A stretch of 64,000 nt of DNA from Acanthochlamys bracteata (lineage: Eukaryota > Streptophyta > Magnoliopsida > Pandanales > Velloziaceae): contig CM034134.1 of NCBI GenBank assembly GCA_019914995.1, forward strand, positions 700,145 to 764,144, written 5' to 3'. Both the position numbers and the translations under genes were made by a program. The notes beneath the pieces were generated by a model. The model was not told where the DNA came from. It saw nothing but the letters and a program-made list of their open reading frames with translations, and did not search any database. Below, piece after piece: positions 4,381 to 64,000 of the stretch; the stretch's first letter is position 1, and each line of letters starts with the position of its first letter.

Positions 4381-4649
4381 TAAACGTTCTTTAGTAATTT
4401 AAAATTACTTAAAAAGTACGAATAAATTACACATAATTTTGTATAAATTTTTTATTGCGCGTAATAAATATTGACTAGTTAATAACGTGAGCGCTTTGGA
4501 CTTCGTGTAACTACTACACCAGTTGAATTATCTAAAGAAACTTCAAACAACTTTCCAAAATGATATATTTTTTTTTTCGTCAATCGCTTTCAAATTCCTT
4601 ATCTAATATTAAAACTCAAATGAAGATAGCTTCCGCGAAAATAATATGA

Positions 4650-27835: not shown

Positions 27836-28056
27836 TTTAGAAAAAGTGCTTATAAAATAGAATTTTTTTTAAATGGAAAATATTTTTATTTTTTAAAAAT
27901 ATTTTTTATTTTTTATTTTCAAAAAAATAATAAAAATATACAATAAAATATTTTTTTTATATTTTTAAATAAATTTTTAAATACTTCTAAAATATATATT
28001 AAAAATGTGAAATAAAAAATTAAAAAATTATTTATAAAAAATGCTCTCCCAAACGT
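27836..28056. repeat. AT-rich dispersed repeat, 'GTTTGG' family, inverted
   Basis: Runs in the opposite sense to the copies at 11047 and 45050: it begins AAAAAGTGCTTATAAAATAG and ends AATGCTCTCCCAAACG. Confidence 0.45.
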
Positions 28057-28858: not shown

Positions 28859-29344
28859 ATCTCATCTTCTATAAAAACGTATGAACATATAATGTTTTTA
28901 TAGGGTTCGTTTTTATGCAAAGAATTAAAAATAGATTTTAAAATAAGTTTTAGAAGTTAATAGTATTTGAAAGTGAAATCCGAAAATAAGTGTTTGGCCG
29001 ACAAAAGTGAGTTCTTAAATGAGAAAGTATTTAAAAAACAATTAAAAAGAATAAAAAATTAATTAAAAATATTTGTCAAAAAAAAAAGACATTAATAAAT
29101 GGAGTGAAAATAGCATCTTATAGAGTAGACCAAACAATACTGTCATTAAACAGTACAACAACAACAAAGGAGTGGAAGACAAACGGTGAAGAAACTCATG
29201 AAACCAACGATAAAAGCAAAAAAAATAAAAAATAAAAATCAGAGCTATCAATTTTTCATTCACTTCTCTCTTCTCTTATCTAAGAATCAATCCAGAAGTT
29301 TTTTTTTTCGGTTTTAGAGAGACAACGGACGGCCGGAAGAGATC

Positions 29345-33788: not shown

Positions 33789-34340
33789 TAGCGATGGCAA
33801 TCGAATTCCTGAGTCCGTTCCAGATCATTCTATATAATAATCGAATAAAAATTTTCAATCCTAACACAACTCATTTATTTATATGAGTCAAAATTAGCAA
33901 CCCTAATCCAACCTATTTATAACCGAATCAAACTCGAATTGACCCATTTAATAATTAAATTATTAAAATAAAAATATTAAAAATATTAATTTTTAATATA
34001 ATATATAAAAATTATTAATTATGATATATTTACAAAAAAATATTAATTTTGACAAAATTTATAAATTAAATAAAAATTAGTTAAATTAAGATAAATTAAT
34101 ATATATATATATACAAATTAAATTCAAATTTATTGATATTATTTTTTAATTATTAAATAAATATATACTATATAAATAGTTATACGGATTAAACGGATCA
34201 ATTTTAGGTCAATTCGAATCCGATCTAAACTATTTAAAATTTTCGAGTCGACTTGAAATCGACCCGATTCCGACTAAGGCATGATCCGAAGTCAATCTTT
34301 TCGGATCGGTTTTAGATCGGGTCGAAATTTGCGACTCCTG
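33789..34340. mobile_element. hAT-type MITE, diverged copy
   Basis: Same order of internal words as the copy at 11362 (for example CAATCCTAACACAACTCATT against the equivalent there). Decayed ends TAGCGATGGCAA and TTGCGACTCCTG. Flanking GAAGATAT (33781-33788) and AAAGATAT (34341-34348) match at 7 of 8 bases. Many CG sites have become TG or CA, as expected from old cytosine methylation. Confidence 0.75.
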
Positions 34341-36322
34341 AAAGATATAAATGAAATATAGATTATAAAATGATTATATTTCTAAGTTTTATTTTTTAAA
34401 ATATTTATAATAAAAAAATTTAAATTTTTTTTCAATAAATACTTCCAAATATTCAATAATAAAATATGCTCTTAGTTATGAAATAGCTAGTATGTATATA
34501 TTGATATAACAATCCCTATTATACACCAGTAACACAAGCAGAGATATAAGGATATGAAATTGTTTTAAAAAAATATAAATAAAAGTAGTTTTGAGTCTTT
34601 TTTAAAAAAATATTTTAGCTAAATATTAATTTATAAAATATAAAAATATTATGAAATATAAATTATCATTAAAATTTTTTGAAGAAATCTCTAGACATGA
34701 AAGTAGAATTAAAATTTTTAAACAAAAAAATTTAAGGAGAACAAAATAGAAATTAAAATAGAGAGCTAAATGACCCCATAATGTAATAGCACATATAATT
34801 GATTAGACCTAAAACTAGAATAGCTAGCGGACGTTTATATAATGCTTATCATTCTAGTTTGAATAAATCTCTTGAATTTTTATTTTATAATTTTAATAAA
34901 TTATTTATCATATTTTATAAAATTATTAAAAGTATTAAAAAATATAGAAAAATAAGATAATAAGAATTTGTTATTATTATTATTTTGTGGAATAAAAAAA
35001 TAAAACTTTTTATCAAAATAAAAATATTTTTGTGTCTAAAAATTATTTTTAGTTAACATTATAATAAAATTTTTAGATATTTATAAAATATATATTAAAA
35101 AATATAAAATTAAAATTAAAAATTAAATTTTTTTGTAAGCAAAGCTAAATCGCCTCTGACGTTTGTCTAAACTTTTTTTAATTTTAAAATTTACATAGTT
35201 CTATAAATTATTATAAATATTTTATAAAAATACTAAAATTTTTAAATAATATTTTTAATAAACACTTAGCCAAACACACTCTCTATTTTTAAAATAATAT
35301 AAATATATATATACATAGTCAAAATTTAAATTAATTTTTAAAAATTATTTAAATATTAGTCATTTAAAAAATGTTCTACAATATATTCTTATAATATTTA
35401 TAGAATTGTTTTATCAATTGAAAACTATAAATTATTATATAGTATAATGTATTTTTTAGTTGACAAGTTAGATTATTTTTAAAACTATTTAAATAATTTT
35501 CATTCTATAATGTTTTACATTATAAGTATTTGTAAATATCTCCTTAATAATTTCTGGAGTTTTTAAGCCGTTACATTCAAATTATTTGGTTTTTAAAAGA
35601 TTAGTGCGATTTTGAAGAAAATAAAGTTGGTTTAGTATCTTTTATTATTATTATTTTTACTTGGATGGCGATTTTATCACTATTACTGGGGTTTATGAAA
35701 CAAATGAAAGATTGAAACTTCAATTTTTCACAAAAAAATACATATAATATTTATTATATATATTTAAATTTTTTAATAAAAAATAAATTTATTTTTAAAA
35801 AAGCATGTTTGGGGAGCTTTTTTTTTTCTGAATTTTTCATTTCAGGACGTCTAGAATGTTCTACATAATTATTTAAAAAAATTTTAAAATGCAAAAAAAT
35901 TTTAGGTCGTGAAATCTTTTTATTAATTATTTTTATTTTTTTTTAAAGTAAAAAAAAAGTAGAACTAATTTTTCAAAAATTTTCAAAATATTCTTCTATA
36001 GTAAATAGCTTTTCAGATGAAAGATGATAACCCAAATAAGAAGAAAATTCAAGTAATTTCTGCAAACCCACACCATATCTTTTCACTGCTTTATAATTGG
36101 AGCTTACTAATTCTGTGGTTCTGAAGATGGAAATGCAAAGAGTGAATGAAGAAATTATATATGATAAAGAATCAACAGATAGCTTTGTTGGAGAAGGCAA
36201 ATCATTACAAGGTTGACAAGTTTGGACATTCACTGGTATTTCTTGGCCCTCTTCTTCTTATCAAGTTTCTCAAAACCCTTTTCTTGGCATCAGACATAAG
36301 CTAACTGCTTCTTTTCCGGCAG

Positions 36323-41055: not shown

Positions 41056-44000
41056 TTAGCTTGCAGCTTTAACAAGGGCACTTCGGACATTAGTGAAGCA
41101 TGAGACAAGTGATCCAAGTTGCAGCTTATCGTTGCATGCAGAACTCAACCTATACCTGCAAATACGAATTCAAATGAAAAGTAAGACATAAGTTGTAGAC
41201 ATACATTTGATGATAAGCTCGTATAATAGTCCATGTTGACTAGAAAGGTCATCTACTCATCTTCTATGTTTATTGTTGTATAAGAGTAACAGGCAAATCT
41301 ATACATAATGCATCATTGAAAGAGAGCATACTCGATATCAGCCAAGTCATTGACTAGTTTTTCTCTTACGTCAGATGGCATATTAATCTTGAAAACAAAC
41401 CTGCAAGGCCAACCACAACATATTAGAATCGAGACACAAACATAGACTAATCAAGTATTGGATAAAGAAGGCAGTGATTCTACTTACATGAAAACCTCTC
41501 TTACGATATCAACTAATGCTAGTCCTTTCCTTGTTTTAACATCAGATATATCTAAACAACAGTAAAGGGTAAAACATCGAAATCTTAGTCGTACAAAATT
41601 TATCTTTAGTCTGAATCAGAGCATGTAAAAGGATACATTTGTAGGTATCCTTGAATGACTCGTTCAGAAGCCAGAATGTTATCTTTTCGACATCCTTGGG
41701 CATAGGATTACCAGTGCACAAGTAGATAGCTTCTTCTGTGATGTCATGTGAAGCCATATGGGTCGACTGTGAACAAGGTTAGCACACCATAAAAAAATGA
41801 GAATCGACGCACGAAGTGATTCAAGTAACCACTACAAATAAAAGATATAGGGGTATTATAGACGTAGGTTCCCTAAAGCCTAGCAACAAATGAACTGTAG
41901 GAAAGGCTGTAAATGCCTGCTAGTATGGGATATACCTGCAATATATTGAGAGCTTTTCTCATATCACCACCACTCAGGCGCACAAGAGCATCCATGCCAC
42001 CTTTATCCACAGAAAGCCTAAAAGAGAGATGCGCTGATGTGATCACTATTTCAAATGGGATGAATATTGCATAAATTTGTTTCTAAAGATATTTTTAGAC
42101 TATAACTCAAGGAAATAAAGATGTGAAGAATATGATGCACATTAAAGATTGTACGATGTGATTGGTCAGCTAGCCTTTTAACTATATCAAAACTACCCTA
42201 ATCTTCGATTAGAATGATTAAACTACCATAAAATACTATCCAAAACAGCCATCAGCACAAGATGCACCACAACATAACAACAAGAACAATGACAATTAAG
42301 CCTCGCCCCACTAGTAGAGAGCACAACCTAACTACTGTGACAAATTAAAGGAGAGACGACAAGTGAACCTTACCCTTCAGCACTTATTACGAATTGCAGG
42401 CGTTCTCTGATGTTAGAGGAATCAAGTGGAGCGAAACGAAAACGTGTGCATCTGGACTGCAAAGCTGGAATAATTTTGTTGACATTATTACAGATAAGGG
42501 CAAACCTCGTGCTTTTTGTGTACTTCTCGATCACTGGATCAAATTAAAGGTGCGAGTTAGAGAGGTCTCAAGAAAACCTAGTAATGCAGAGTAAATAAGT
42601 TATATTGAACCTCTACGCAAAGCAAACTGTGCATCCTTGGTCATAGCATCTGCTTCATCCAGTAAGACCAACTTGACAGAGGCCTTGGTGCTGCATGCAA
42701 GTAAAGAGTCATGCTGAATGGCACAAAAATAAACCACTACTCGCTTCCACATTGAAGACCAAAATATCAAGAGGAATGGTCTAAATTCATTAGTCCGCAG
42801 ATTGCAACGAGAAAATTATCTTCAGCTCATAAATCATCTTCTGCTGCATTGTTTTATTTTGAGGAAACTGGCATTGCCATCTTGGACTACATTGATCCTC
42901 CGGTAATCATAAAGGCTTCCAACACTTGCAACTACCCAGAGTCCATTTATCATGAATAAAAACTCTCTTTTGTATCACTTCACTAGATTCTACATGTTTC
43001 CTCCTTCAAGCTATGGTATTCAAATAGAATGCTCTAAAATTCTAATAAAATGATATTCCTAGTTTAGAACATCTACCACATTCAGTACAACCTTATGGGA
43101 AGTGATAGGATTAAAATAATGAATGAAACTAACTGCTCCATAGTACCCAAAGGCAAGACTGGAAGAGCTGGCGAAGTCCAGAATCTGTTGTCGTACGACA
43201 TCAATTCCACGCTCATCAGATGCATTTAGTTCAAGGATCATCTGCCCATACTTATCCCCAAAGAGTTTCCGCGCCACTGCCAATATCGTGGATGTCTTTC
43301 CTGTCCCTGGCGGCCCATAAAGCAGCAGGTGTGGCAGGCGCCCCTCACTTGTCAGTCGATCAACTTCACAAACAAATTTACAAAGATCTTTAAGAAAGTC
43401 AATTATCTAGAAAATCAAAAGACAAAATAGTATCTAATTTTACACAAAAAGTTGAACAATAACTTCCTAAAGATATCTAATTTCCCAGAAAGTAACCAGA
43501 GGACAAGACAGACTCTGATTTCTATAAAGGAACAAAGAATAGAAATCGAAAATTTCGAAAGCAACTTAAAAAAGTTCAACTTACTAAAACAACCGAGAAT
43601 AACTATGATTCATATAAGGAGACTGAGATAGAAAAAGTTATTACTTGTGTACTACCATCTCGAAAAACTTTCTCCTCAACAAACAACCAAAATTGCATCA
43701 CAACTCAAAAAAGATTCAATTTTTTTCACGAAGAGCTCAATATAACTTAATCTATCAAAGAACACCACCAACCATCTCTTACAAAAATTCCCCTCAAAAA
43801 ACAAACCAAACTATCACAATCAACTCGACAGAACTAACGAATCCAAAAAAGAGGTCAAAGTTCTCCAAAATCCCAATATAACTCAACACATTAACAAAAA
43901 TTGTCAACCCATTTCTTCAATATCATCACAATGAATTAGAAGACCTAACAAATCCAAACATCAAGATTCGAAAATTTTTCCAAGAAATTATTACTTGTCT

Positions 44001-45538: not shown

Positions 45539-45594
45539 CAGAAGTATAAAAGTAAAGCAGAGAAGATTTGAGGAGAGTTTAAAATTCTGTAACA

Positions 45595-47034
45595 ATGAAA
45601 CCTTTCCCGCCGCTAGTTTCCCTCCAACTCCTTCAACTTCACTCTCTCCTTCCCAAGACTTCCCTCCTTCGCCAACATCACCACCACCCTTTGATCTTCT
45701 CTCTCTTCTCTCCGTCCGTTACGACAACCTTCATTTGCAACTCTCTGATTAGATTCTATGCAGAAGCTTCACGCCATGTAGATGCCATCAAGTTCTTCAT
45801 TGACACGAAGCGTGAGGGAGTTGAAACAGATAATTATACTTACCCTTTTGTTCTCAAGACTTGCGGGAGCAGCACGATGGTGGAAGAAGGGAGGATGGTG
45901 CATGGAGAGATTGTGAAAGTGGGTATGTTTTCGGATGCGTACGTGGGGAATGGATTGCTGCATATGTATGGTTCTTGCAGGTGGATTGAGTCTGCGAGGA
46001 AGGTATTCGATGAAATGTTACAGAGAGATGTTGTTACTTGGAGCTCGATGATTGAAGCTTATGTTTCATGGTAGGTCTATTTGATCTTGTAGGTTTAACA
46101 TACTCTGGTTAGTTGAATGCTTATTGCATTATGTTTTGCAATGAAATGTTTATCTTTGAATATGAACAAAGTTTTTCAAATTCTTAATCTTTGAGAATCT
46201 TGATATGTTTGCAGTAAGCAGCCCCATGACGCATTGTTGGCATTTAGGAAAATGGCACTTACAAGTGTCAAACCAAATTCTGTGACTTTGGTGAGCTTGC
46301 TTTCTGCCTGCAATGATCTCACTAGCTTGTGTTTCGGCAAGTCTGTGCATACCTACATAGTCATCAACAAGATGGAACTAGATGTTGCTATTGGAACTGC
46401 TCTTGTTCGAATGTACTCTAGATGTGGCTGCATTGATTATGCATTCCGAGTATTCAGTTCCATGCAAGTGAATAACCTCCAAACATGGACTACAATGATT
46501 GCAGGTCTCGCTGATCATGGCCTTGGACGAGATGCTATTTCTCTCTTCGTCCAGATGGAAAGTTGCAGTGTGAGACCTGATAGTGTAATTTTCTCCTGCA
46601 TCTTAAGTGCGTGCAGTCACATGGGCATCATAGATGAGGGCAAGTCTTATTTCAAGAAGATGGTTGAGGTATATAACATCAAACCAAGGATGGAGCACTA
46701 TGGGTGCATGGTTGATATGTTTGCTCGTGCCGGGTTAGTAGAAGCTGCTTTTGACTTTATTGTGAAGATGCCAGTCACTCCAAACAGTGTTATAATCAGG
46801 TCCTTTTTAGGAGCATGTAAAAAATATGGGACTGTTCTAAATTATGACGAGAAGCTGATAAAGCTGTTAATGGAAATCGAGCCACAACTTGGAGCAAATT
46901 ATGTGGTTGCTGCTAATGTTTCGCAGTTATCTGGTAACTTGGATGACGCTGCTAACTTCTTAAGTGAAATATCAAGAAGTGGCTTAAGAAAGCTCACAGG
47001 TTGTAGTTGGCTAGAAAAGAGTAATAGTACGTAG
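45595..47034 (+). CDS. Pentatricopeptide repeat protein, PLS class
   Basis: RNA-binding PPR protein, presumably for processing, editing or stability of mitochondrial or plastid transcripts. Two exons, 45595-46070 and 46215-47034, join in phase to restore YVSCKQPHDA and give 431 residues. The N-terminus lacks acidic residues and has Leu, Ser and His, which could serve as an organelle transit peptide. Repeats typical of the PLS class follow, such as FVLKTCGSSTMVEEGRMVHG, YVGNGLLHMYGSC, VTWSSMIEAYVS, LLSACNDLTSLCFGKSVH, TALVRMYSRCGCIDYAFRVF and TWTTMIAGLADHGLGRDAI. The last part (MEHYGCMVDMFARAGLVEA, GCSWLE) corresponds to the E region; there is no DYW deaminase domain. An intron in the repeat array is less common, since most PPR genes are intronless. 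It is on the short side for the class, so several repeats may have been lost. Confidence 0.88.
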
Positions 47035-47466
47035 TTAATCACACCTCTGAAGGAACTAAAGGAAGGACGCCAGCAGCATGCTAAACTTTGTATCTTGAGG
47101 ATGTTACAGCGAAGCTTTTGGTTGAAGATTAGAGCTTTACAGCCTGTACATAAGATAAAGCCGTGCAGGTCAGTTCATGACTTAAGTCATTTACTTCATC
47201 TTTCTATACCGAAAGCTATATCTGTTTCAATCAGTAGAATAAAGAACATAGTGGACTAATAACTCCATTGACATGGCACCTAGACAGAGGAAAACCTGGA
47301 AGAAATTCAAACCATACATAGCTACATGTTTTGCAACTTGCATCTAATATAGTGAGCAAAACAATAAACAACCATCTAGTAGCACACCCCCTTAATACCT
47401 GCTGACAATTTTTTCCTAGCAGCTGCAGTTAAATCAACTCTTATTCAAATTCCCCGCCTTCCAGAG
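47035..47466. other. Convergent 3' ends of PPR and AAA-ATPase genes
   Basis: The two genes point toward each other here. The stretch should hold both 3' untranslated regions. No further gene is seen. Confidence 0.5.
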
Positions 47467-48983
47467 TCAGACTTGGTCAAACTCCTCGACCTTCCCAGAA
47501 ATCGCACCCTCCTCCCAACCTGCTCCACCACTTTTGGCCTTCTCTGCAGCTACCGGCAATCCTTCCCAGCTTCTCTCGGGTTGTCCATCTTCCCTTTCTT
47601 CTTCCGACCATTCCCCTTTACTACCATTTTCTGCCCTCACCTTCATCTCTGCTACCAGTTCTCTCAATGCTACCTCTGGGTCATCCCTATGTCTCAACAA
47701 CAGCTCCCCTACCTCTGCTGGCATGATCTCCACTCCCTCATTCTTAGGCAACTCAACTGCCTCCTCTGCGAGGGCACTATTCACTGCTTCCTCTCCTACA
47801 TACCGCTGGATCATCGCTTTTAGTGCATGACTGCCACAATGGCCTAAGCGGATATGGACATCCATCCGACCAGCCCTCAGTAGTGCTGGGTCGATCACCT
47901 TTCTATGGTTCGTTGTGAACACCACTATTCTCTCTTCGCAGCATGACAAGAGTCCGTCTATGAAGTTCAGCAATCCTGAGAGTGTCACTCTCTCTTCATT
48001 GTTCTTCTCTTCCTCTCCGCTGCTCTTGGATTCTCTTCTTGTTCTTCGGTTTGTTGTTGTTCTCTCGCATTTAGGTTTTGAGGACCGGTCGCTGGTGAGA
48101 TCCAAGGAGCAGTCAATGTCTTCAATGACTATGATGGAACGGTTGGTTGTCTGAATGAGTAGAGAACGGAGTTCGGAGTTGCCAGTGACCTTGGTGAGCT
48201 CCAAGTCATACACATCATAGTGCACGTGATTGGCCATGGCAGCAATCAGGCTTGACTTACCAGTCCCTGGGGGGCCGTATAGTAAGTATCCCTGCTTCCA
48301 TGCACGACCAGTGCGCTCGTAGAACTCCCGCCCTGCTGCAAAAGCGTCAATGTCGGATATGATTTGATTCTTCAGTTCCGGATCTAGTGCAAGTGTCTCA
48401 AATGTCGCTGGTTGGTGGAAGGGGACTGATGCTGACGCCATTGGATCACCAGGCGGATTAGCGTAAAGCCGCCATTCCCTTGAAGCTACTGCAAGGGCCT
48501 CGGCTGTTGAAGAGACATGGGCAAGGTATGGTTGAAGGAGGACTGCTGCACGCCTCTTGGGAAGTCGGAGGGAGAACGACCGGCGCTCTTCAAGTGAATC
48601 CTGAAGAGTGTCAGCATTGTGAAACCAAAAAAGCTTGTGACCTGCAAAGGAGTCATCTGCAGTGTGGCCAGGGGAGAGGGAGAAAGCAAGGTGGCCAGAT
48701 GGAGAGCCGCTGTGGTGGGACAGTGTTAGGCGAGGGAGTGAACTAGAGGAAGCATTTGAAGTGGATTTATGGTGGAGGTAGAGTTGTGCATGGCGGTAGA
48801 GATCGTTAGGCTCAACCGCTGAAGAACTTAGGAATTCTGGAACATCGAAGTAGGATGCGGGTTGAGAGATTCCTGCAGGGTTTGCCATGCAGAGTGCAGT
48901 AGGGAGAGGAGTTGAGAAGGTAACAAGTTTTGCAACACTGTCAGAAGACCAAGCAAAGACCACAACTGAGACAATAACTCCAT
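47467..48983 (-). CDS. BCS1-like AAA-ATPase with N-terminal frameshift
   Basis: Plant AAA-ATPase of the mitochondrial BCS1-like (AATP1/ASD) family; members sit in mitochondrial or ER membranes and some affect seed development and stress responses. The long frame 48858-47467 carries YFDVPEF, DLYRHAQLYLHH, SLEERRSFSLRLPKR, VPFHQPATFETLALDPELK, Walker [20 protein letters not shown], Walker B SIIVIEDIDCSLDLT, LSGLLNFIDGLLSCC, the second region of homology TTNHRKVIDPALLRAGRMD, and a Glu-rich tail. No intron is seen, which is usual. The frame has no upstream ATG and meets a stop just before 48996. In another frame, ATG at 48983-48981 opens MELLSQLWSLLGLLTVLQN and LPSQLLSLLHSAWQTLQ, which is the expected membrane-anchor N-terminus. 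One base appears missing near 48858-48861 (a CCC run). Either the gene is broken, or the assembly has an indel; with it corrected the protein would be about 505 residues. Confidence 0.85.
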
Positions 48984-51900
48984 ACAATACCCTCACTCAC
49001 TACTTAACAGGATAGGTACAGGATGCTCTTATCTTTTCAATTCTATGAACTCCTGCTGCTAATGCCAGTGATCTTTTATTAGCTAATTACTCTGGCTTGC
49101 GACAGAATTTCTACTTCTACACTACTACCAATCCAGCTCTTTCATCTATAGGCGCACTAGTTACATGCATGAACTCTTCGACATCTATTACTAATGCTCG
49201 TTCTACTGGGGCGTTTCGAATAGAATTTTGGTTTGGATAGTTTATGGGGGTTTTGTTGGTGAGGGGGTTCAGAAGAATTTCTGCGAGGATTTATAAAATG
49301 GGGAGAGTGGAGAACAAAGGTAAAGGCGAAAGTTGATTAAGAGAAGTGTTTCATTTTTTCCTACTGCTGCTGGTACTGCAATGCTAGCTCCTAGGGAGTT
49401 GTGTTTATGGTAAGGGGTTTTGCTTTATCTTTTCCTCTCATCGTCACTGCTTTTTATCTGAGAAATCCAGAGGAGCAGATTTAGAAGCTAGCACGTAATG
49501 TCTAATGGTTACTGCATAAAGTTCTTTCAATTTTGTAATTTGAGATATAGTGCAATATTTGGCTTGTTTTGGTTTAAAAGAATATGCAAGTAGGTATTAT
49601 AGGACCTATCACTTCTTTCGATTTGGAAAACCATAAGCCACTAAGCAATTGTTGAGACTTTGATTTTGTGACACATTATGTATGTTATGTTATGGCATCA
49701 AGACGTGTTCTTTATTAGTCTTACAGAAAGATCTGGCGAGCTTTTGCATTACAAAAGGATACCATACATGCTGGCAAAAGTTGTGTTTATATCTTTAGTT
49801 GAATAAATGTTAATGCAATTCTACAAATTAAACTAAAAGATCTACATTTTTGGACCTTTTTTAAACCTTTGAAATTCCTTTTATTCCATCACCCATTTGT
49901 TTTTGGCAGAAGAATGCATAGGTAGCCAAGAGAAGAACACCTACGAGAGGATAGTCAGCCCATGTGCAAGACAAATTGTTGTGGGAGTCAAAGAATAAAG
50001 CAATGAAAGAAAAGGGAAAGAAGGGGATAAAAAAAAACTCGTGCAATTTTGGAATGTCAATATTGATGCCTTCAATCCATGTCTTCTTTTTTGAAAGACA
50101 CAAAAAGGTTGGTAATAGTAGCCCTTTTATCTCGTTTTAAAGATGTTAGCCAAGCTTTGGATTCCAGTTTCGTTAAGTCATTGTTCTAAGGAAGTTTTCA
50201 TGATTGAAAAAAAAAATGCTAGACTTCTAGGTGAAGTCTCTTTTTAGAGTTGCTACTTTTTCGATGAAAATGGGTTGGAAATTAGTAGCAGAGTTTAATT
50301 GCAGCCAGCTTATGAGGTGTTTTTCTTTTTATTAGTTCTTGAAGTAATCTCTTATCCGAGAAAAGAGTCAGAGCATCCATGGTTATGAAGGCCCTCATAG
50401 GCCATAGGAATTAGTAGAGAGTAGATATTTTAGGACATTCTGCTAGATAACTGACTTTAAATAACGTACCTAGATATTATACAAACATCATAACCAAAAT
50501 ACTCTTCTGCTTCAGGAATCATGGTCTATTCCAGCTTGAGCTACTTGTTAAAGCCTTGACACTTAAGTTTTGCATTGAGCAGCAGAAGAACTTGGTGATA
50601 CCGTAGGTTTGTGTTCCTCTGAAAAATAAGTGATGGAAAGACCATTAGCTGAGAAGGCTAGCTATTATGTTCACAATTATATGCTTGTTTTGGACAATAA
50701 TCTTGACCTCAAGCTAAAAATGTCGACAGATCTGCTTTCCAAGGTTTTGCCTTTGCACAAAGTGAGAAGTTCATTTGTTACTATTTCAGCCTTGAGTAAA
50801 ATACTTCGAGTTATCTTCACTTACTATAAGCTAGTTCAAAATCTCTTTGCCTAAAGAATCAATTCACTTTATTGTACTGTCATGTATATGTAGCTAACAC
50901 AAAATTCTGAAAATTTGAGAGCAGGTGATACTGATATTGTGATGCTCAAAAGCAAAAATGGCCTTTTCCTTTCAAAACAAAACTAGCAATATGAAGCTGA
51001 CCTTGCCAAGATGAAAGCATGAGGGTACCCATCTTTTCTTTCCTGAATCAATCTTCTTTTACTTTTCTTTTTCTTCTTTCTTTTCAAAATTTAGTTTTCT
51101 TGTTGATTGCATCTGTAGCACATGTTTTAGGAATCAGATTCATGCTTTACTTCTAACTCTCTTTCTTTCTGCTCATGCGTGCTCAACCAGTGAAGTGTTT
51201 TTGTTGTTCTCGACTTCTATTCCTCTCGTGGTGTTACAATAAAGCAATTTTTAGATTTATATTTTACTGCTTTTCGCCAAGCATCTTATATAGGCATTTA
51301 TGTGTAAATTCCATTGTTTTGAAATGTGAAAAAGACAAATAGAATTAGCTAGAACTGAAGGACTTATACTTTCGAACTTTTTTCTCACCATGTAAAAACC
51401 TTTTTATGTATATATAAGATTAAAAAACATACATTTGTCACTACTTAAAGTTTCTAAAAGTTTCTTTACTTAGTTCTCTCAAGATTATAGATTATTATTA
51501 AGCTCTTTTCCTGCATGCACACTTGTGCTTATGAAAATAAGCTACTCGAACCTGCTGCTAATTTTCTTTTTCACTGACTCCCAAGTCATTACTTTTCACT
51601 TTTGCACGCTATAATATATAAGCTGCAGCTTTTTCCCACTTAGTTATTGATTATATTCATAGTACTAGCTTTAATTATTCTACTGTAGATCTAATGGGAT
51701 TTGATCCAGGTTCCTATCCTGCTATGTGATTTATCAGCAAAGTTCATCTTGAAATATTCTGGCCAGGTCAAGCCATGAATTTTTTCTTTTTTGGTTTCAA
51801 TCTAGTGATATAACTGGTAAATTCTATACGTATTAGTGATTGGCGAATTATCTATTTGACCATGGTAGCTTATTAATTACAAACAATTTTTTATATATGT

Positions 51901-53030
51901 CCAAGTTAAATTTGTCATACTCAAACTATGGATTACAGTATGGAACCATCTGAAGCTCTATTTTTGTTGATCTATGACAAATGTAAGGAGATCTCTATAT
52001 AGTTCATATTTTTCATTTTAAACATGATTGCAAACAGTATTCCATATTAGAATGCTATGCTATGGATTTGCCTTAACAATCACCATTTGATTTACAACTA
52101 TCGCGTAGATGTGAGCTTTTGGCTTAGATTACCATGAAAGTGGGTTTTTAATTTTTAATTTTATATTTTTTAATACGTATTTTATAAATATTTAAAAATA
52201 TATTTAAAAATTTTAAAAATATAAAAAAATTTAGTAAAATTTTTTTATTATATATTTTTATTATTTTTTAAAATAAAAAAATAAAACTTATTTTTCAAAA
52301 AAAGAAAGTTTTTTATTTTAGAAAATTTTATTTCAAATGTATTTTTAAACGCCCCCTTAGATGAGCATATTGTAAAAGTAAATTTTGAATTTTTATTTCA
52401 TATTTTTTAATAAATATTTATAATATTTTATAGAATTTATTTAAAAATATAAAATTTATATAAAAATATTATGTTATAAGATTTTATTTTTATTTTTTAA
52501 AATAAAAAATAAAATAATTTTTTGAAGAAAATAAAATATTTTCTATTTTTAAAAAAATAATTTTTATGAACACTCGTACATACCTCTCACTTTTTCACAG
52601 ACGATGATTGAAGGCAGGTAAGAAGACAAAACTCTGAGGCATATAGGTGCAATGCAGCGATCATGTCCTGCTCGTTTCCCTTCTAAATTGCTGGTATTGT
52701 TCTAATCAACCCTTTTCTTCTTTGGCTATCTACGTTGGCGCAAGTGACTTTTTCTTTTCCAAGAAATCAGTTTCAAATAAATTTTTTATATTTATTTTGA
52801 AATCTATTCTCACAAATTTATTCATTTTTGAAAAACTTACTTTCGTGCAAGTGCAAGTTGTGCGTTTAATTTACTGAGTATTTCATTTATGGTTGAAAAC
52901 ATATTTTAAAATTTTAGAAGAAGTAACTGTTCAAAGTCTTCAGGCCAGCCAAATATTTAAAATCCGGCCTGACCACATAATAGGACGGGGCCGATTCAAC
53001 TCAACTCTGTTTTACACGCAGGACCGGGCC
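48984..53030. other. Spacer upstream of the AAA-ATPase gene
   Basis: The first few hundred bases are probably promoter and leader of the AAA-ATPase gene (minus strand). No other gene is supported. Short open frames at about 49861-50103 (-) and 50630-50854 (+) have no recognisable similarity. AT-rich repeat sequence occurs at 52123-52355 and 52370-52580. Confidence 0.45.
52123..52355. repeat. AT-rich dispersed repeat, 'GTTTGG' family
   Basis: The interior matches 45050-45296 (TTTTTTAATACGTATTTTAT, then AAAATAAAACTTATTTTTCA) and it ends near TTTTTAAACGCCCCC. A second related stretch follows at about 52370-52580. Confidence 0.5.
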
Positions 53031-53067
53031 GAACTGTTTAATCCGGCCCAAATTTACATCTCTGTTT
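52955..53067. mobile_element. Possible remnant of a GGGCC-rich MITE
   Basis: Contains repeated GGCC words (AATCCGGCCTGACC, GGACGGGGCCGATTC, CAGGACCGGGCCGAAC, AATCCGGCCCAAATTTACAT). This recalls plant MITEs whose ends read like TAGGGGTGTAAA with GGGCC arrays inside. No intact ends were found, so this is tentative. It carries the site II type box used below. Confidence 0.35.
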
Positions 53068-53143
53068 GGAGCCCTTATGAAGATGGTATCCGCCACCGTC
53101 GCCAAGGAGAGCGCTAGCTATTAGGGTTTGCAGGCTATAAATA
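53045..53143 (+). promoter_or_regulatory. Promoter with site II box, telo box and TATA box
   Basis: GGCCCA at 53045-53050 (TGGGCC on the other strand, the site II box), TTAGGGTTT at 53121-53129 (inverted telo box) and TATAAATA at 53136-53143. The pairing of telo and site II boxes is typical of plant ribosomal-protein and snoRNA gene promoters. A start of transcription near 53170 would follow. Confidence 0.65.
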
Positions 53144-53845
53144 AGTAACCTGTGGAGGTGGCGACTACTCAGTACTCACTTCCTAATCTGATCTGAGAAG
53201 GCGGCCGGCCACCCGCCGCCGCTCCTCGACGATGACTGGTTCTCTTTCTTCTTCTTCTACTTGTTTCTCTTTGGTTGTTCCTTTTATCATAGATGGATCG
53301 GAGCGGTTGTTTGTTCGTTTTTATTGTTTGTTTGATTAATTGATTCACCGTCGGTGGTTTCCGATTATTTCGATCCCGATGAGGATTAATAGACCTAAAC
53401 AAAAGATAGGAAGTGCCGTATGACACTTTTGCTCTCGTAGCAGCAGAGCCCGCAGCGACGCTGCTTCTTCTCCCTGTTCGATTTTGTTGTCAAGCCACCG
53501 GAAAACATCATCATCTTCCGAATCATCGTCATAGTCTCTCTTCTTCTCTCCCTCCCTCTGCTTCGATTGTAGTGTCTGATGACTGCTTGATCCATCAGAC
53601 AGTGAACAGAGTGAGATGGAGAGAGATTGATCGGGATAGGCAGATGTTTTGTTTTGTTTTCCAGTGCAATGTCAGGCATCGTGGGATGAACGGCAGCCCT
53701 CTGCTCTCTGCTTGTATGATTTTACATGGGTCTCTGAGGGCTTCTTCTCCATTCAATCAATTGTTTCTTCCTCTTTGTTTTTTGTGAAATTTGGTTTGTA
53801 TGCAATGCGATTCCTATTTTTTAGATACTGATCGATGGAAAATGT

Positions 53846-53930
53846 GAGCCTGTGATGATCTGAGATCTTTTAAACTGGAATTACCGGCTGATCATCTCTC
53901 TGATGCACATCTCACTGCTCCCTGAGGCTC
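53846..53930 (+). ncRNA. C/D box snoRNA predicted to guide 18S rRNA methylation
   Basis: Guides 2'-O-methylation of rRNA in the nucleolus as a fibrillarin-containing particle. All parts are visible: terminal stem GAGCC (53846-53850) with GGCTC (53926-53930), C box GTGATGA (53852-53858), D' box CTGA (53888-53891), C' box TGATGC (53901-53906) and D box CTGA (53922-53925). The 12 bases CTGGAATTACCG (53875-53886) before D' are complementary to the universally conserved 18S sequence CGGTAATTCCAG. By the rule of the fifth base upstream of the box, position 53883 pairs with the U of CGGU, so the predicted target is that uridine, which is methylated in other eukaryotes. The second guide region before the D box (about 53908-53921) has no target that I recognise. 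It lies in a region with a snoRNA-type promoter. Confidence 0.85.
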
Positions 53931-54046
53931 TCCATCCCATTTCACTTAGTTTTTTCTTATTTCTGTTTTTTGTCAGTTGTGTATGCTATACTTCACTTGA
54001 TAATTTCTTTTGGTTCTCTGCTCACTGTTTCATTGCTTTAATTGAT

Positions 54047-54124
54047 CCTGGTGATGATTGATTGTGTGATCTCAAAACAATGAACATCTCCGAGGTTCAG
54101 TTTGGTTAGACCACTTCTGAAAGG
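54047..54124 (+). ncRNA. Second candidate C/D box snoRNA
   Basis: C box GTGATGA at 54051-54057 and D box CTGA at 54117-54120, 66 bases apart start to start, with only a 3-bp terminal stem (CCT with AGG). The possible guide before D (about 54103-54116) has no rRNA match that I can name, and no clear D'/C' pair is seen. Weak support apart from its place in the same locus. Confidence 0.35.
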
Positions 54125-54290
54125 CCTGATTGCCACGTCTCCAGTAGTAGATACACAATGACTGGTTGATGCTAAGATCAGTTGCCAATATCAAGTTTCG
54201 TCCTACTGATAGGAACCTGGGGATGCTATTGCTCTTAATCCACGGGGCCGTTTCCGGCGATCACATTACTTTTTTCTTTGAATATATTAA

Positions 54291-56147: not shown

Positions 56148-59100
56148 ATGAAAGGATCGAACGGTGTTGATGGAGAGATTGATATTGATATTACCGGAGC
56201 GGAGATCTGCGGGGAAATCGAAGAAAGAAATCCTCCGATCTGTCTCCCCAACGTGAAGTTTTCTCCCGATCAATCTCCACTCGTTGCTCTTGATATTGGA
56301 GGTTTTTTCTTATTTTAAGTTAATTTCATTGCAATTGATTGATACATTTGTCTTGTTGTTGTTGTGAGTGTTACTATTATCTCCTGGTTGTGGTTGTGCT
56401 TGTTGTAGTTGTTATTGTTGTTTGCATCACATTGTTGTTGCTGCTTGTTTTTTTTTATAAAATTAATTTAAGGTTTTACTGATTTGCAAAAAGTTTCTGT
56501 CACTTATCGTTTGTTACTGTTGTTGTTGTTGATGGTCACGTTATTTAGGTTGTTGTTGTTGTCATTGCCGTTGCTGATCATGTTATTTAGTTGTTGTTGT
56601 TGTTATTACAATGTGAAACTTGAAACTTTACTGATTTGTGAAATGTTTTGATCCAAATTATGTGGAATTCGGGGAAGTTAACCTTTGAGGAAATACTTGT
56701 TATGGCAAAGGGACAGTTTTTGCGTACTTGTGAGTGGATCCTTTCTGGCAAAGTGGAAAATGAAATGTAAAAGAACAAACAAGACTTGATGCTGAATTGT
56801 ATGTCCTGCAGCTGCATAACATGTTTTGTATGAATTCAGAAGACCTGACTCTCAGATATTCAAATTGTTCTTGTTACACTTGATATTTCATAATCGACAT
56901 TGTTGGATTTTCTTATCGCATTATTTTATTCTTTGAAAAGGATTGTTTTCTTTCAATTAGATTTCTGAAACATACAGAAAGTTGTTGGTTTTGAAATTCT
57001 GAAGTATAATGGCTGCTGCTGTTCCATCTTGTAGGATTGCAAATTCTGAAATTGTTACGTATAATGGCTGCTTCCTTTCATCTTGTAGTATGGAAACTTA
57101 TGTGATTTAGTTTGTAAACAAAATCATCTCTCCTTCAAAAACCTGAGGCATGTAGTATAGTCTTGACTTTGAATTTTCTACTGTGGCTGCCATTGCATCT
57201 GTAGCATGAATTTCATACAGCAATTTGACCATGTCATTTCATGTTTTTCTTAAAATATAGTAATTATGTTTCTATAGGTTGATTTTAGCATTGTATATAC
57301 AACAGGGACACTGGTCAAGTTGGTCTATTTTGAGACCGATGCAGAAGATGCAATGAAGGGTGGGAAGCTCTGTTTTAAAAGGTTCCAGACAAGGCAGCTT
57401 GATGAGTGCATTGAGTTCATCCAATCCAAGCTACTTCCCTATGGAAATGGTACTAGAATGTCCTTTGTTACCCGCTTGGCTTAAAAGAATAATCCTCGAT
57501 TTTCCAATTCAATTTGTTAGTGGTTGCAGTCACGGAACAAATTATGATGAGAAATATAATATCTTCAGATTATTCAAAGCTTATATCAGTGATCTACTAA
57601 CCAATGGTACTTTACTGTAACAAATAGGTGAATCACACATCTATAACAATGTATATCTCTCAATGACTTATCTACTGTAGTACTGTTCGCCTTACATAAG
57701 TACATTCTCTAGGCAGCAATTTTTTATTCCCACCAGCAAACCTCCACTTTCAATTTCTGGTATAAACTCATATGAGGTAGTACCTATACAAATACTTTAT
57801 TATGTTACTTTTCACTTCTAACTCTCAATGTTCACTTAGGATTAGTGGGGTTTGCATAATTTTAAAACTTCGCTATCCTAGTTCTGTTTCTCTGTTCTCA
57901 TCATTTTGGTCTTTATATAATCACAGTCTCCCTTCTCTGTTAATATTCATATTTATAACACTACTCTTTTATCATAATTTTATCCCAGCGGTGTTTGTTT
58001 CTACCTTTTTATTTATATAAATTAAAAAATAACATGCTATATAAATGCCTGCTAAAATGCAACCATTTTCTGTCAGGCCCTAGTCTCTATCTATTGATAG
58101 GACCTACACAGCAGTGATTTGGAGTAGGTACATAATTGTGGATAATTTGGAAAATCACATTCTGGTTATTCTTTACATGTTTATCTACGACATGCTTTAT
58201 CTGCTTCTACTGTTTCATGCGAGTTATTTTTTCTTTTATAGATAGTTCAAATTTCTTGATCTTGCAGGAAATAGAACGTCTACATCAAATGCCACTTTGA
58301 AAATAAAGGTAGCACAATAAGCTGCATTTCCAAAAGTCAAATATATCCATAATATTTGTAAAGTAAGTAGTGCTGACCTTGTTTGAAGCGTCTGTACAAT
58401 TACACCAGTCTTTTCTGTGAGGTGAAATCTAAGGCTTGAAAGGCAAAATGTCATGCAGTTGGCCATTGAGAAATAAGACATCACAAGAGCTTGGATAAAA
58501 ATGATATGGTGAGATTGTACAAAAGTCGTAACAATTAAATAGGAGGGTTCATTTAAAGGACTTTTTTAAATATTGAAATACCCAAAGTCATGCAACTAAT
58601 TGTAGTTCGCTACACTAAAAGATTGATTGCCGCCATAGTCAAGAACACATAAACCTCTTTTTCGATGTTTCATTAATAAATTCTTTATATTGTTGTTGTG
58701 CAGAGGTTTGGAGCAATTTGACCAAAGAAATAAATGGGGATTTGACAAAAGGAATCTTATGCATGAAACTAAATCAATTTTGTGGAAGCTACATAGTCAA
58801 TCTTGCATAAAGTTACTTTTCCTTGTCTACTGTTTATAAATATTGACAGGGTAGAAGACTCTATGCTTTCAATTTCTCTGTGCGGACATCAGCACAAGAC
58901 AAGTCTTATATTAAATTGAATATAAAGTTGTCTTAAAATACCAATTATGTACGTGTTGTAGTTTAATATTCCAGTCAGTTGTGCTTTGTGACTGTAGGCA
59001 TCACTTAGCCTTAAGTTTATGTTAGCGGACTTCATTTGTTGGACTTCTAAAGTTTCTTTTTATTTTATATATTATGTTAAGAGTATTTCAGGGATTCATG

Positions 59101-62100
59101 TAATGCTGTATTATAGAGCACTTTTACCTAGATAGCTTAACTACTCTAAATAGTAGTAGGTTGTGACTTGCTTAAGTTTGACTACTGTTTGCTTGATAGG
59201 CTACAGGTGGTGGAGCTTATAAGTATGCCGATATTTTTAAAGAGAAGCTAGGCATCACTCTTGATAAGTTGGACGAAATAGAGGCTGTTGTAACTGGAGC
59301 AAATTTTCTGTTGAAGGTTTGGCTAGAACATCCCCTCAGTTCCAAGTTTCATAGTTAATTGACAACGCTTTGCAGTCTGGTTTTGGTGAATTCTTGTTTG
59401 TTTAAAGTCAATCATCCATACCATTATCTTAGTTATATTTTTATAACAAGAAGTACTTATGCTAACTTTTATAGATGAACATTCTCTTTTGGTACCTAGC
59501 CATTAGTTGCACCTCGTGAATTCCATAACCTAGCATTGGTGATCTCATCGACCTAGCTCTTCGAGAGGTATGATGACACTAGGTGGTTGCTCAGATGAAT
59601 TAACCTTCTAAAGATGTAATATTGTTTTCTGTATTAATAAATAGGTTGTCAGATGTTACTTACATAAGGCTTAAGAGGATAACATAGCAAGTTGTATTTC
59701 TAACTATTGGCGCAACAAACTTCTGCCAATGCATGGAACTTAACTAGTTGTTAAGATTCTTGTTTTAACAACTATAAAATTTCAAGCGCCTATCTATCAA
59801 TCCTAAAAGTGGGCTCTCTTCCCTGGTACTGGCAAAGTCTATTTTGCTAAAAAGCTGAAACTACTCTGTTGATGTGACTTTCTCCAAATCAAGACTGCTC
59901 TTGGAATGGTTGATTGCTGTTTATGTATTGCATCAGTCAAGAAGAAATGTCTTTGAGCATGTATGATAATTTCTAGCCTTCAGACTTTTTCTGAAGTTAT
60001 CTTCAGTATATTTTGCAATTATCTGATTAATGTTTTACATATAAAGCAGCTATCGTTTTAATCTCAATTGACATGAGTATGTTTGGCTGGACAATACTCT
60101 CTAGTTAGGGTATCAATCAAATTGTTTCGTTTTTGTTATGATAAATTAAGATCTAATTATTGCTGTTGTCATTGGACAGAATATCTCCAATGCAGCATTT
60201 ATTCACATTCATGGGAAAAGGGATCCTGTATATATTAGTGAAAAGAACTTATTTCCATTTCTCCTTGTCAACATTGGCACAGGTGTTGGCATGATAAAGG
60301 TACTTAACATTTTGCCACAGGACTCAGGCAGTCATTTGGTGCTCCTCATTTCATTTTTAAAGTTTCTTATTAGGGGACATTATAAAAATCAATATAGGTA
60401 ACAGGAGCTCGAAAATATAAGCGAGTAACAGGAACACATATTGGTGGTGGTACTATGTTTGGCATCGCAAAACTTTTAACCGGCTGCAGGAGGTAATATT
60501 TAGATCTTTGTAGTGCTTGTTTTCTGTATTATAATTTTTCATTTTGAACCTTTTTTTCTTACCCCCTTTATAGGTATGATGAATTCTTAGATTTGAGCCA
60601 GAACGGGGATAATATTGTCTTGGACTTAATTGTTAAAGATATTTGTGGAGAATTAGTTTGTAAGCAGGTATACTCCTGGTAATTGTATAATTCACAACTA
60701 TCCTTTCTGTTTTAACCTTAAGTCAATACTAATACTGTCATAACATTGAAACACTAATTATTATTGATGAGTGATTAATACTTCAATTTTGATGAATAAG
60801 GTAGATCTAAAGAACAGCTTCATTAATCATTGTTGAAGGCTAGTCAAACAATTTCCAATAACATTATTAACTAAATGGGAATTTTGCATTAACAATTGTG
60901 TAGGCGTACTAAATCTAGTTAGCATGAGAATAAAACAATGTCAGACAGGAACTTTAACAATGAAGTTATGGTTATAAGGACATGACTACTTGTTGGTCTT
61001 AGGGGCCTAACTTCTTCTAAGTAACAGATGGACTTGCATGCATCACATGTTTCTTAATATTGTTTGGAACCTTCCCCCCCCCGTTTTTAAATATGTGAAG
61101 TATCTTAATCAATCTTGAGCCACAGTATCTAGTTGCCAAAACATTGTAGTTAATTATGAAATTTCTTTTAAACATTTTTTTATTCACCTTAATATTGTAC
61201 TAGAGAAACTTACAAACTCCTATGTTTTGTAGAGAAACTTACGAACTCCTATGGTTTGTTGGCTCAAGTTTCAAGGCTTTGTATTTTATAGATCATATAT
61301 TTCAAAACTACAGTTTTATTTACCTTAAAATGTGTAGTGAGATGAGCTTTTTATTTTACTTTCAGCAAGGCCTTTCAGCTTCAACCATTGCTTCAAGCTT
61401 TGGGAAGGTTGCAAATTCCAAGAAGGAGCTCTCAGATTACAAGGCTGAGGACCTTGCTGCAACACTATTGAGTGCATTCACATATAATATTGCTCAAGTA
61501 AGCTTCTTGTTGATCTCCCTGTCTTTAGTTAGGAAAATGTAAAATTGTTAACATATTTTGATATCTTCGCTACTTTCTGCAAGAGTTTTTGTACCACTTC
61601 AAGGTCTTGATATGCAAATTTCTAACTTTGATAGTTCTTTCACAGCAATCTACTAATGTGTGCTTCTCCACATCTTGTATACTTTGTTGTGCATAAAAAA
61701 TTTTCTACATGATATTTGTGGTAGCATTTGTAATATAATCATTATGTTAATTAGTTCCTTGATGGTTATGATATTTAGTTGTACACTGTAACTGTATTCT
61801 CTCTTTTGCCTGAATTATGGTACTGTATAAAATGTTATGATAGTTGGCCTTTCTTTGGTCTGTACTCTTTGTTTATCTCATTAAGTTATCCTGAGAAACT
61901 TTGGCTACTATTACTCGGAAAAATAAACTTTAGCTGGCTAGGTCTCAGTTCTTTCCTTGTAAAATATTGTTGATGGAGAATGATGGGCTGCAATGTGGAA
62001 GAAGCCATAGTAACTTGAACTAGGTAGCAAGTACCTAGAGACATGCTATTTGTGTTTTCTGTGCCACATAAATTGTCTGTTATATCCTACAGCTTCTGCT

Positions 62101-63760
62101 TCTCCTTTGTTCCAACTAAATATTCCCAGGGCGTTTTACCTTACTGTCTTTGAAATCCTACTTTTGATTATGAATGAAATGAACAAATTGGAACTATATC
62201 TTCTTTGAGCTCGGTTTGTGTTACATCTATCAATTTTGCATGTCGTGTTACATAATCCTTGACTAGAGAGTTTTTTATGCATATAATTTTCATATGCAAT
62301 GTGGAAAATATGAAATTTATCTTTCCTCTGGGAGCAAATGAATATTCAATGAGATACTAACCAATCTAAATGAGACTAAAATTCACTTTTGGGGGAGTTT
62401 AGGGTTTCCCATTATTATCTATAAAAAATAAACTGTTTCTGGAACACCTCTTGGTATCATTTCCCTCCCCTTGAAATGGATATATATCATAACTAGTCTG
62501 AATATTTCTAATGTTGCTTTTACTTTACAGATTTCCTACCTAGTGGCCACTCTGTTAGGGCTGAAGAGAGTGTTCTTTGGGGGTTCTTACATACGCGGTC
62601 ATGCGAGTACCATGGATAACATCTCTTATGCTATTGATTATTGGTAGCCATCATCTTTCTGTTTTGAACTGATTTGACATTCAAGCACTTCAAATTGTTG
62701 GAATGTCAGTGCCAGCTTTATATTTGATCCTTGTTAGTGATGGAACTCCTTTCTAAACTCTCCTTCCTTCAGATATTATTTTGCACTTTCCAGGTCGAAA
62801 GGTGAAATGCAAGCTGTGTTCCTACGTCATGAGGGGTATTTAGGGGCTTTAGGTGCATTCATGAGTAATGTGAACCTGGAACATGGTGAGTCAACCATTG
62901 AAGATGTACAAGAGAATGTAAGTAGCTATTACATCTCATAAGCTTGACATAGTGAACCTAGTGTATACACTTTATAAGATTTCAATTTTCTTTGTAGTTT
63001 GTTTTGACAAACAATTACGGATTCTTCCGGACAGCTCTGTGTGCTTTTCTTATCTCGATATCTACTGGTTTTACAAGTTTTATAACTTTCCTAGTTGTTA
63101 TTTTACTATCTTATTTGTTGTACATTACTGGTAAACTGAAAGAGTGAAAGAGTTCTGTTATGTTGCTCTTCTCCTTGCCCATAGTTTCTATGTACGTGTT
63201 TTTGTGGCCCAATGGTCGCTTTCCTGAAGGTGTTAGCAATATTAGTAATGATTAGTTTTTTCACTTGAGCAGGAATTATTCCCTGAATCATCTTCTACTT
63301 CTGATGGAAGCTTGACCAATGGATATGATCAATGTAACATATTTCCCTATCTTCTTGTAAATATTGGATCAGGAGTTAGTATGATAGAGGTAATTTTTTT
63401 ACAATTTCTTGGTTAGAAAGCACCTTGGTTTCTTATTCTTGTCATCAGTCATATGAACTTTTCAATTTCATACAGTTTATCACAAAGCTTAAATGTAATG
63501 CAGGTAGTTGGTAAAGGAAGGTTTGAGCGTATCATTGGAACTCATTTAGGTGGTGGTACTATACTTGGTCTTGCAAGGCTTTTAACAGGATGTAACAGGT
63601 AGTTTTGAATACTAAAGAACTTTTGAACTACGCTTTTATGTTATGTTGCTTTCTCTTTTCTTCTAGTTATGATGAGTTCTTAGAGATGAGTAAGAAGGGA
63701 GATAATCTTTCTGTTGACTTGACTGTTGGAGATATATACGGGCCAGAGGGATATCCGAAG
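56148..63760 (+). CDS. PANK1: Pantothenate kinase with partial second copy, 3' end outside window
   Basis: Phosphorylates pantothenate, the first and controlling step of coenzyme A synthesis, in the cytosol. Exons inferred: 56148-56301, 57306-57449, 58268-58308, 59200-59316, 60180-60299, 60398-60492, 60574-60667, 61366-61497, 62531-62643, 62794-62917, then 63273-63389, 63505-63599 and 63667-63760, all in phase. The first ten give a complete kinase of about 378 residues. It has [14 protein letters not shown] (ATP site of the actin/Hsp70/sugar kinase fold), [79 protein letters not shown] and [15 protein letters not shown]. The last three repeat exons 5-7: [35 protein letters not shown] and [13 protein letters not shown]. 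The frame opens earlier at 56064 but without an ATG; 56148 is the first ATG. Reading through the donor of exon 10 gives a stop at 62939-62941. Confidence 0.85.
56350..56610 (+). repeat. GTT/TTG triplet-rich tract in intron 1
   Basis: Several runs of TTGTTGTTG-type triplets separated by short unique sequence, within intron 1 of the pantothenate kinase gene. Likely polymorphic in length. Confidence 0.7.
63273..63760 (+). repeat. Duplicated exons 5-7 of the pantothenate kinase gene
   Basis: Exons of 117, 95 and 94 bases mirror exons of 120, 95 and 94 bases at 60180, 60398 and 60574, with the same phases and the same break after LLTGC. The introns between them differ in length and are much shorter (115 and 67 bases). 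Confidence 0.85.
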
Positions 63761-64000
63761 GTATTTTTCTCTTTTGATTACCTTTAACAAATAAATTGAA
63801 CATACTTACACTTTCCGATTCTTCAAAGCTCTCTCTATTGCTGTCCTGCTTATGAACTTACTATTCCTCCTCTTCTGTTCTTTTTTGTATTGGGTATTCT
63901 CTTTCCTGTCACTGATGCTGTCAAGGTGTAATGGGTAGAATACCTAAATGGACTAAGATTTTGTTATTTAATTAGTTGGAGAGAATATAGTTTCCAAATT

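Follow-up and report, generated by a model that had tools for sequence, protein, structure and literature searches.

Pantothenate kinase starts coenzyme A synthesis and sets its rate. Here we describe a pantothenate kinase (PanK) gene of Acanthochlamys bracteata in which the exons for the C-terminal lobe (C-lobe) of the kinase occur twice. The gene lies at the right end of a stretch of 64,000 nucleotides (nt), referred to below as the window, that corresponds to C9:700145-764144 of an assembly of 195.5 Mb in 557 contigs. All coordinates are given in window numbering on the + strand, unless stated otherwise. Exons were re-derived from their GT donors, AG acceptors and phases, and the right flank beyond position 64000 was also read.

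Seventeen exons with an internal repeat

All 13 exons within the window could be re-derived with GT donors and AG acceptors and, together with exons 14-17 in the right flank, they form a gene whose frame, spliced from genomic DNA, runs for 669 codons without a stop, with GT-AG boundaries at 16/16 introns. Exons 1-10 (56148-62917), which we call copy A, encode a complete type II pantothenate kinase domain of 378 amino acids (aa) that scores 380 bits on the Pfam profile Fumble (cut-off 28.5). Exons 11-16, or copy B, encode the whole C-lobe again; the 291 aa of this copy, including its tail, cover profile positions 142-333 of 334 with 258 bits, and the part inside the window (exons 11-13 only, 102 aa) reaches 126.5 bits against the same cut-off, far above chance. 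The complete 669-aa chain scores 632 bits on Fumble, split in two stretches, and 538 bits on TIGR00555 (cut-off 247.6). By profile, the gene is a eukaryotic type II pantothenate kinase.

An earlier note on this DNA had reported that three exons repeat exons 5-7 and join exon 10 in frame. Both statements agree with our results: the sizes (120/117, 95/95 and 94/94 nt) and phases (0, 0, 2) match, and exon 10 meets exon 11 in phase 0 at the level of the frame. The shared motifs it listed stand only in part, since the repeat is real but copy A reads LLVNIGTGV and GTHIGGGT, and two of the quoted motifs are exact in the second copy only. Nor is the repeat confined to exons 5-7, as had been thought. 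It continues past position 64000, where the note had proposed to look for exons 8-10; these are present there as exons 14-16 and are followed by one further exon. This exon 17 encodes leucine at six successive heptad positions, with a hydrophobic heptad score reached by 65 of 5000 shuffles, and matched one place in the assembly, namely itself.

The search of the assembly with Fumble (17 candidates scored; at least 19 exon matches, 11 at C9 and 8 at C12) found only one other locus, C12:5512699-5517947, a count that is a lower bound. This paralogue is an ordinary PANK2-like kinase-plus-DUF89 gene, in which pieces of the downstream exons, put together by eye, score 119 bits as a DUF89 domain. Its exons 4-9 are identical in size to those of copy A and its exon 10 has 193 nt, like exon 16 of copy B; exon 10 of copy A is 69 nt shorter than these two counterparts, with its phase unchanged. 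Among the exons compared with C12 (exon 1 was left out), exon 4, which carries the catalytic Asp-Glu pair, is the best conserved. The DUF89 domain that the note had considered for the right flank was not found: when the DUF89 part of C12 was compared by tblastn with the window and the 8.9 kb that follow it, no match had an E value below 0.12, and a kinase-DUF89 continuation of the C9 gene was rejected over that distance.

In exon 1 of the C12 paralogue (L011 826-1058) an apparent one-base frameshift separates the putative start codon from a conserved EERNPTILLPN stretch. A true mutation here could leave the C9 gene as the sole intact PanK among those found in the assembly. The same frameshift may be taken as a sign that the assembly or the gene models are at fault, and that the repeat in the C9 gene is itself an artefact. 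We consider this very improbable. Copies A and B are 52% identical, so they are not a collapsed or duplicated haplotype, and their junction lies inside an 8.6-Mb contig, where an 801-bp junction query gave one full match and further matches of 53 and 61 bp. On this divergence and the single full-length match, an assembly duplicate was rejected.

Table 1. Exons of the C9 pantothenate kinase gene (window numbering; residue numbers are those of human PANK3)
Feature	Position	Strand	Remarks
Exon 1	56148..56301	+	Starts with ATG; phase 0 to 1, GT donor; last residues ALDIGG, from the first phosphate loop
Exon 2	57306..57449	+	Completes the first phosphate loop motif; C12 counterpart is exon 2, 213 nt
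Exon 3	58268..58308	+	41 nt; C12 exon 3 has 59 nt
Exon 4	59200..59316	+	ATGGGAYKY...LDEIEA, Asp137/Glu138 equivalents; 30/39 identical to C12 exon 4
Exon 5, copy A	60180..60299	+	NIGTGVG; Ser192 to Thr, Ser195 to Gly
Exon 6, copy A	60398..60492	+	Arg207 equivalent retained
Exon 7, copy A	60574..60667	+	Flap; Tyr254 and Tyr258 equivalents are Cys
Exon 8, copy A	61366..61497	+	132 nt, same in C12
Exon 9, copy A	62531..62643	+	Gly321 and Arg325 equivalents retained
Exon 10, copy A	62794..62917	+	124 nt; donor AAT/GTAAGT
Exon 11 (copy B exon 5)	63273..63389	+	Repeats exon 5; first part Ser/Thr-rich, linker-like
Exon 12 (copy B exon 6)	63504..63598	+	Repeats exon 6
Exon 13 (copy B exon 7)	63667..63760	+	DIYGPEGY; both flap Tyr retained
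Exon 14 (copy B exon 8)	64557-64682	+	Outside window
Exon 15 (copy B exon 9)	65460-65572	+	Outside window
Exon 16 (copy B exon 10)	65770-65962	+	Outside window; 193 nt
Exon 17	66277-66414	+	Outside window; leucine-zipper-like tail, stop TGA

Origin of copy B and constraint on its sequence

Copy B has no exons 1-4 and hence no N-terminal lobe (N-lobe). The idea that it is a tandem duplicate whose first exons were lost is correct as to their absence, but no remnant of a second exon 1-4 set was found by tblastn (to E 20) in the 355-nt gap before it, that is, in intron 10. The four ATGs in this gap all lack a continuous frame into exon 11. Two of them are nested and carry phase-0 GT dinucleotides, including a 31-codon open reading frame (ATG at 63160) with such dinucleotides at 63184 and 63196, which could in principle serve as donors of a first exon if A and B were two separate genes, the second with its own promoter inside intron 10. 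However, there are only 355 nt of room for both, the N-lobe was not found there, and a separate B protein would be devoid of the first ATP loop and of the catalytic Glu. We judge two separate genes to be quite improbable and, with neither an N-lobe in the gap nor a start codon in frame into exon 11, an independent gene for B was rejected.

Two side observations concern the same region. A segment of 63 bp in intron 10 (63200-63262) is 86% identical to contig C174:3053-3113 (L014). This contig has a tRNA-Ser(GGA) gene and appears organellar when judged by eye, so that a small insert of organelle DNA seems to be present in the intron separating the two copies. Furthermore, the linker stretch of B (63273-63335) was aligned by MAFFT with copy A from the last part of exon 2 through exon 3 (57430-58308), probably by chance and less probably as a remnant of exons 2-3.

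The interpretation in the earlier note, which had listed a tandem duplicate fused by splicing among the possible origins, is supported in part: the sequence supports an internal duplication of exons 5-10 that is readable in frame. A tree of the two exon sets, which the note had also proposed, makes A and B sisters against C12, yeast CAB1 and human PANK1 (five C-lobe sequences, ultrafast bootstrap 90). The 193-nt exon and the GAPYVG tail that copy B shares with C12 suggest a PANK2-like ancestry, and we infer that the gene descends from a PANK2-like architecture in which exons 5-10 were duplicated internally, exon 10 of copy A having later lost 69 nt.

Nonsynonymous and synonymous divergence (dN/dS) between A and B amounts to 0.37/1.69 over exons 5-10 and to 0.29/1.09 in the core; the values are 0.36/1.84 for A and C12 and 0.43/1.88 for B and C12, and the upper bootstrap limits of the ratio are 0.35 (A-B), 0.32 (A-C12) and 0.37 (B-C12). 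With dS near saturation, the duplication can be dated only as old. In the four intron pairs compared, the A and B copies align no better than shuffles. When the 226-codon frame of exons 5-10 of copy A was left to evolve neutrally in simulation, the runs that kept it open numbered, out of 2000 at each level, 380 with 0.05 substitutions per site, 74 with 0.1, 6 with 0.2 and 0 with 0.5. Copy B is longer than this simulated frame, and we therefore conclude that B has been maintained as protein-coding for most of its history.

These data bear on a further explanation, in which a full-length kinase A is merely followed by an untranslated or decaying partial copy. Consistent with decay, B has neither exons 1-4 nor a clear start codon, its branch, at 0.74, exceeds those of the other two plant sequences (0.46 for A and 0.38 for the third), and its Arg325 equivalent has changed. 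Yet all of B is open and its splice dinucleotides are intact at high divergence, which is hardly expected of a neutral copy. Its core retains 33/42 of the residues invariant among CAB1, human PANK1 and PANK2, versus 28/42 in A, and the B-C12 divergence given above argues in the same direction. Decay of B is in our view improbable. By these measures copy B is old, open and constrained, not a recent pseudogene, and it evolves faster than A yet is kept protein-coding.

Active-site residues and predicted products

Residues are numbered as in human PANK3 and were mapped to the plant chain by an alignment made here; their roles are those stated in the cited papers. Each active site of the PANK3 dimer is shared between the protomers: pantothenate is bound by Glu138, Ser195 and Arg207 of one together with Val268' and Ala269' of its partner, and the pairs Asp137-Tyr258' and Glu138-Tyr254' link the two (PMC8366970). 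Val250', Ile253', Tyr254', Tyr258' and Ala269' line the cavity on the partner's flexible flap, and Trp341' stacks on the ligand PZ-2891 (PMC6199309). Gly19 and Gly321 are required for activity via ATP binding (PMC6114107), and Arg325 contacts the 3'-phosphate of the inhibitor acetyl-CoA (PMC5882169).

Copy A carries the Asp-Glu pair at chain positions 138-139, with the equivalents of Glu138 and Arg207 in LDEIEA and YKRVTG (Arg201 corresponding to Arg207), and has Gly317 and Arg321 for Gly321 and Arg325. We take the equivalent of Gly19 to lie in DIGGTLVK. Thr186 and Gly189 stand at the positions of Ser192 and Ser195, and Cys248 and Cys253 at those of Tyr254 and Tyr258. Copy B retains equivalents of Ser192, Ser195, Arg207, Tyr254 and Tyr258, as well as Gly540 for Gly321; it has Cys544 in place of Arg325 and no N-lobe. 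No single protomer unites Ser195, Tyr254/Tyr258 and Glu138, with A reading Gly, Cys and Cys at the first three and B reading Ser, Tyr and Tyr without the N-lobe. A composite site formed by A and the flap of B has all of the listed residues but Ser195, and Val268' is replaced by Thr. In the mirror site, formed by B and the flap of A, the residues Gly19, Asp137, Glu138, Arg325 and both flap tyrosines are missing.

The division may extend beyond these residues. Some residues common to C12 and CAB1 survive in just one of the two copies. In the core of exons 5-7, A has 3 of these and B has 10; in exons 8-10, A has 10 and B has 2 (Fisher p 0.005). Restriction to positions invariant in C12, CAB1 and human PANK1 gives A 1/B 6 and then A 6/B 1 (p 0.03), and C12 alone as reference gives A 7/B 13 and then A 19/B 5 (p 0.005). 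These three tests draw on common data, and neither the beginning of exon 5 nor the C-terminal end of A is included in them. The bits obtained on Pfam segments are 114 for A, 125 for B and 142 for C12 in exons 5-7, and 143, 118 and 152, respectively, in exons 8-10, so that the scores of A and B cross in the direction expected. In copy B, the beginning of exon 5 has departed from the family pattern (of 23 columns compared with C12, A keeps 6 and B keeps 1), as expected of a linker. A division of labour between A and B has moderate support from these comparisons.

The partly different losses at the active site suggest that A and B work together in one chain. The explanation that we propose, and to which we give not quite an even chance, is that one 17-exon gene encodes a 669-aa single-chain type II PanK pseudo-heterodimer with one composite active site. 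An old internal tandem duplication of exons 5-10 would have taken place in a PANK2-like gene that lacked, or had lost, DUF89. The resulting chain would run from the full protomer A (exons 1-10) through a short Ser/Thr-rich linker into the C-lobe of B (exons 11-16) and end in the leucine-zipper-like tail of exon 17. ATP binding and catalysis would be supplied by A, through the first phosphate loop, Asp137/Glu138, Arg207, Gly321 and Arg325, and the flap lost from A would be supplied by B as the partner lobe. Each chain would thereby have one near-complete site, the mirror site being dead. For the fusion it would be enough that the 355-nt intron 10, which has a GTAAGT donor, is spliced in the ordinary way. 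The joining of exons 10 and 11 in the mRNA, the pairing of A with B, and catalysis are what we infer on top of the observed duplication, open frame, constraint and residue split. A double-headed kinase, as entertained in the earlier note, is unlikely: B is without an N-lobe, so there would be one complete site at most.

Several observations weigh against a shared site within one chain. Ser195 lies on the side of Glu138 in PANK3, so the composite site would need it in A; it is instead retained in B and replaced by Gly in A. B also has Thr at the position of Val268'. The phosphate and pantothenate loops are better kept in B than in A, although they would be expected to be idle in a lone C-lobe. 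The asymmetry of losses is also not firm: once the start of exon 5 is taken in and the region boundary may vary, 539 of 10000 permutations match it (p about 0.05). Plain identity to C12 hardly separates the copies in two of the exons, with 16/31 for A and 17/31 for B in exon 6 and 27/44 for A and 25/42 for B in exon 8.

The exon phases would in fact allow three products: the 669-aa fusion, a protein N-A ending in intron 10, and a protein N-B in which exon 4 is joined to exon 11. Retention of intron 10 leads to a stop after seven codons (VSSYYIS) and a product of 385 aa. Exons 5-10 and 11-17 might then be alternative 3' cassettes, spliced to the shared exons 1-4 to give N-A (385 aa, with the retained-intron stop) or N-B (443 aa). 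Of these, N-B would be a competent kinase, though one whose CoA feedback is weakened, and N-A a regulatory or inactive partner. The end of exon 4 and the start of exon 11 are both in phase 0, and N-B (398 aa with the last exon omitted) scores 359 bits over Fumble positions 2-333 of 334. It would unite the equivalents of Asp137, Glu138, Ser195, Arg207, Tyr254, Tyr258 and Gly321, and cassettes would account for the Ser195 and phosphate loop retained in B; the Arg325 lost from B is the acetyl-CoA contact of PANK3 (PMC5882169). On the other hand, six exons that have GT-AG splice sites would have to be skipped, and the GTAAGT donor of exon 10 would be superfluous for N-A. Moreover, the stretch at the start of exon 5 that connects the two lobes has been lost from B (the 23 columns mentioned above), and none of four poly(A)-like hexamers scanned for occurs in intron 10. 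We regard alternative cassettes, the strongest competitor of the fusion, as rather unlikely.

Known systems and the surrounding sequence

In Plasmodium falciparum and Toxoplasma gondii, one unit of the PanK1-PanK2 complex keeps Asp137 without Tyr254/Tyr258 and the other shows the reverse; a single complete site was proposed, and the authors of that report call the heteromeric PanK a hitherto undescribed phenomenon (PMC8366970). The C9 gene resembles this system in having two unequal type II units with a split of Asp and Tyr, although B is without Asp137 through the missing exon 4 and not through substitution. It differs in being one reading frame, as modelled, instead of two chains, and in that its second unit is a C-lobe only. 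On these sequence features the apicomplexan complex would be the closest known system. The full reading, somewhat short of an even chance and put forward tentatively, is that a full protomer and a stripped-down C-lobe partner share an active site while a leucine zipper assembles the chains, making the gene a fused counterpart of the apicomplexan heteromeric PanK that evolved independently in a plant.

Among other relatives, plant PANK2 (C12) has the same sizes for exons 4-9 as copy A and has the 193-nt exon 10 and GAPYVG tail in common with B; in the C9 gene, unlike in PANK2, no DUF89 was found, exons 5-10 occur twice, and exon 17 occupies the place of the phosphatase part. Plant PANK1 is a single kinase domain of about 380 aa in Arabidopsis, a size similar to that of copy A alone (378 aa, or 385 with read-through), but PANK1 is not known to have a second copy. 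Human PANK4, a pseudokinase plus DUF89, likewise has a degenerate kinase lobe within a multi-domain PanK protein. It carries Glu138Val and Arg207Trp (PMC8861153), whereas copy A retains Glu138 and Arg207, and no DUF89 was found. From its predicted features, the C9 gene is neither a PANK2, for which DUF89 was not found, nor a PANK4-type pseudokinase.

A PanK gene with a repeated C-lobe was not described in the titles and abstract beginnings among the literature matches listed, a coverage that most subscription papers lie outside. No relatives of copy A or of the 4-row alignment were found in viral contigs, nor of the alignment in prokaryotic genome contigs, searches that are silent on other plants. 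The two sites of human PANK3 switch in concert, and acetyl-CoA shuts them (PMC6199309). If our proposal is true, the C9 protein would be a natural asymmetric PanK with one dead and one live site, and would test how far cooperativity and feedback need two sites. It would also mean that division of the active site between unequal PanK copies evolved twice, in a plant and in Apicomplexa, and would offer a clear case of duplicate halves retained through complementary loss.

Downstream of the gene, its neighbour (L009 about 5700-9110, minus strand) resembles a cation-diffusion-facilitator (metal tolerance) protein by eye. Upstream, two members of plant small nucleolar RNA families, snoR77Y (53846-53933) and snoR2 (54123-54268), lie near each other on the + strand; they are in keeping with a plant origin of the DNA, as are the intron-rich genes and the PANK2-DUF89 paralogue. 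Several long frames in the window resemble, by eye and from their motifs, known proteins: presumably NF-YA (2412-2861), a TMEM45/DUF716 protein (7903-8592), a C2H2 zinc finger (29318-30358), a PPR protein (45583-47031) and, on the minus strand, a replication factor C subunit (43062-43406) and a BCS1-type AAA ATPase (47470-48996). The blocks 4001-6000, 24001-28000 and 34001-36000 are very AT-rich, with a GC content of 17-21% versus 33-44% at 46001-54000.

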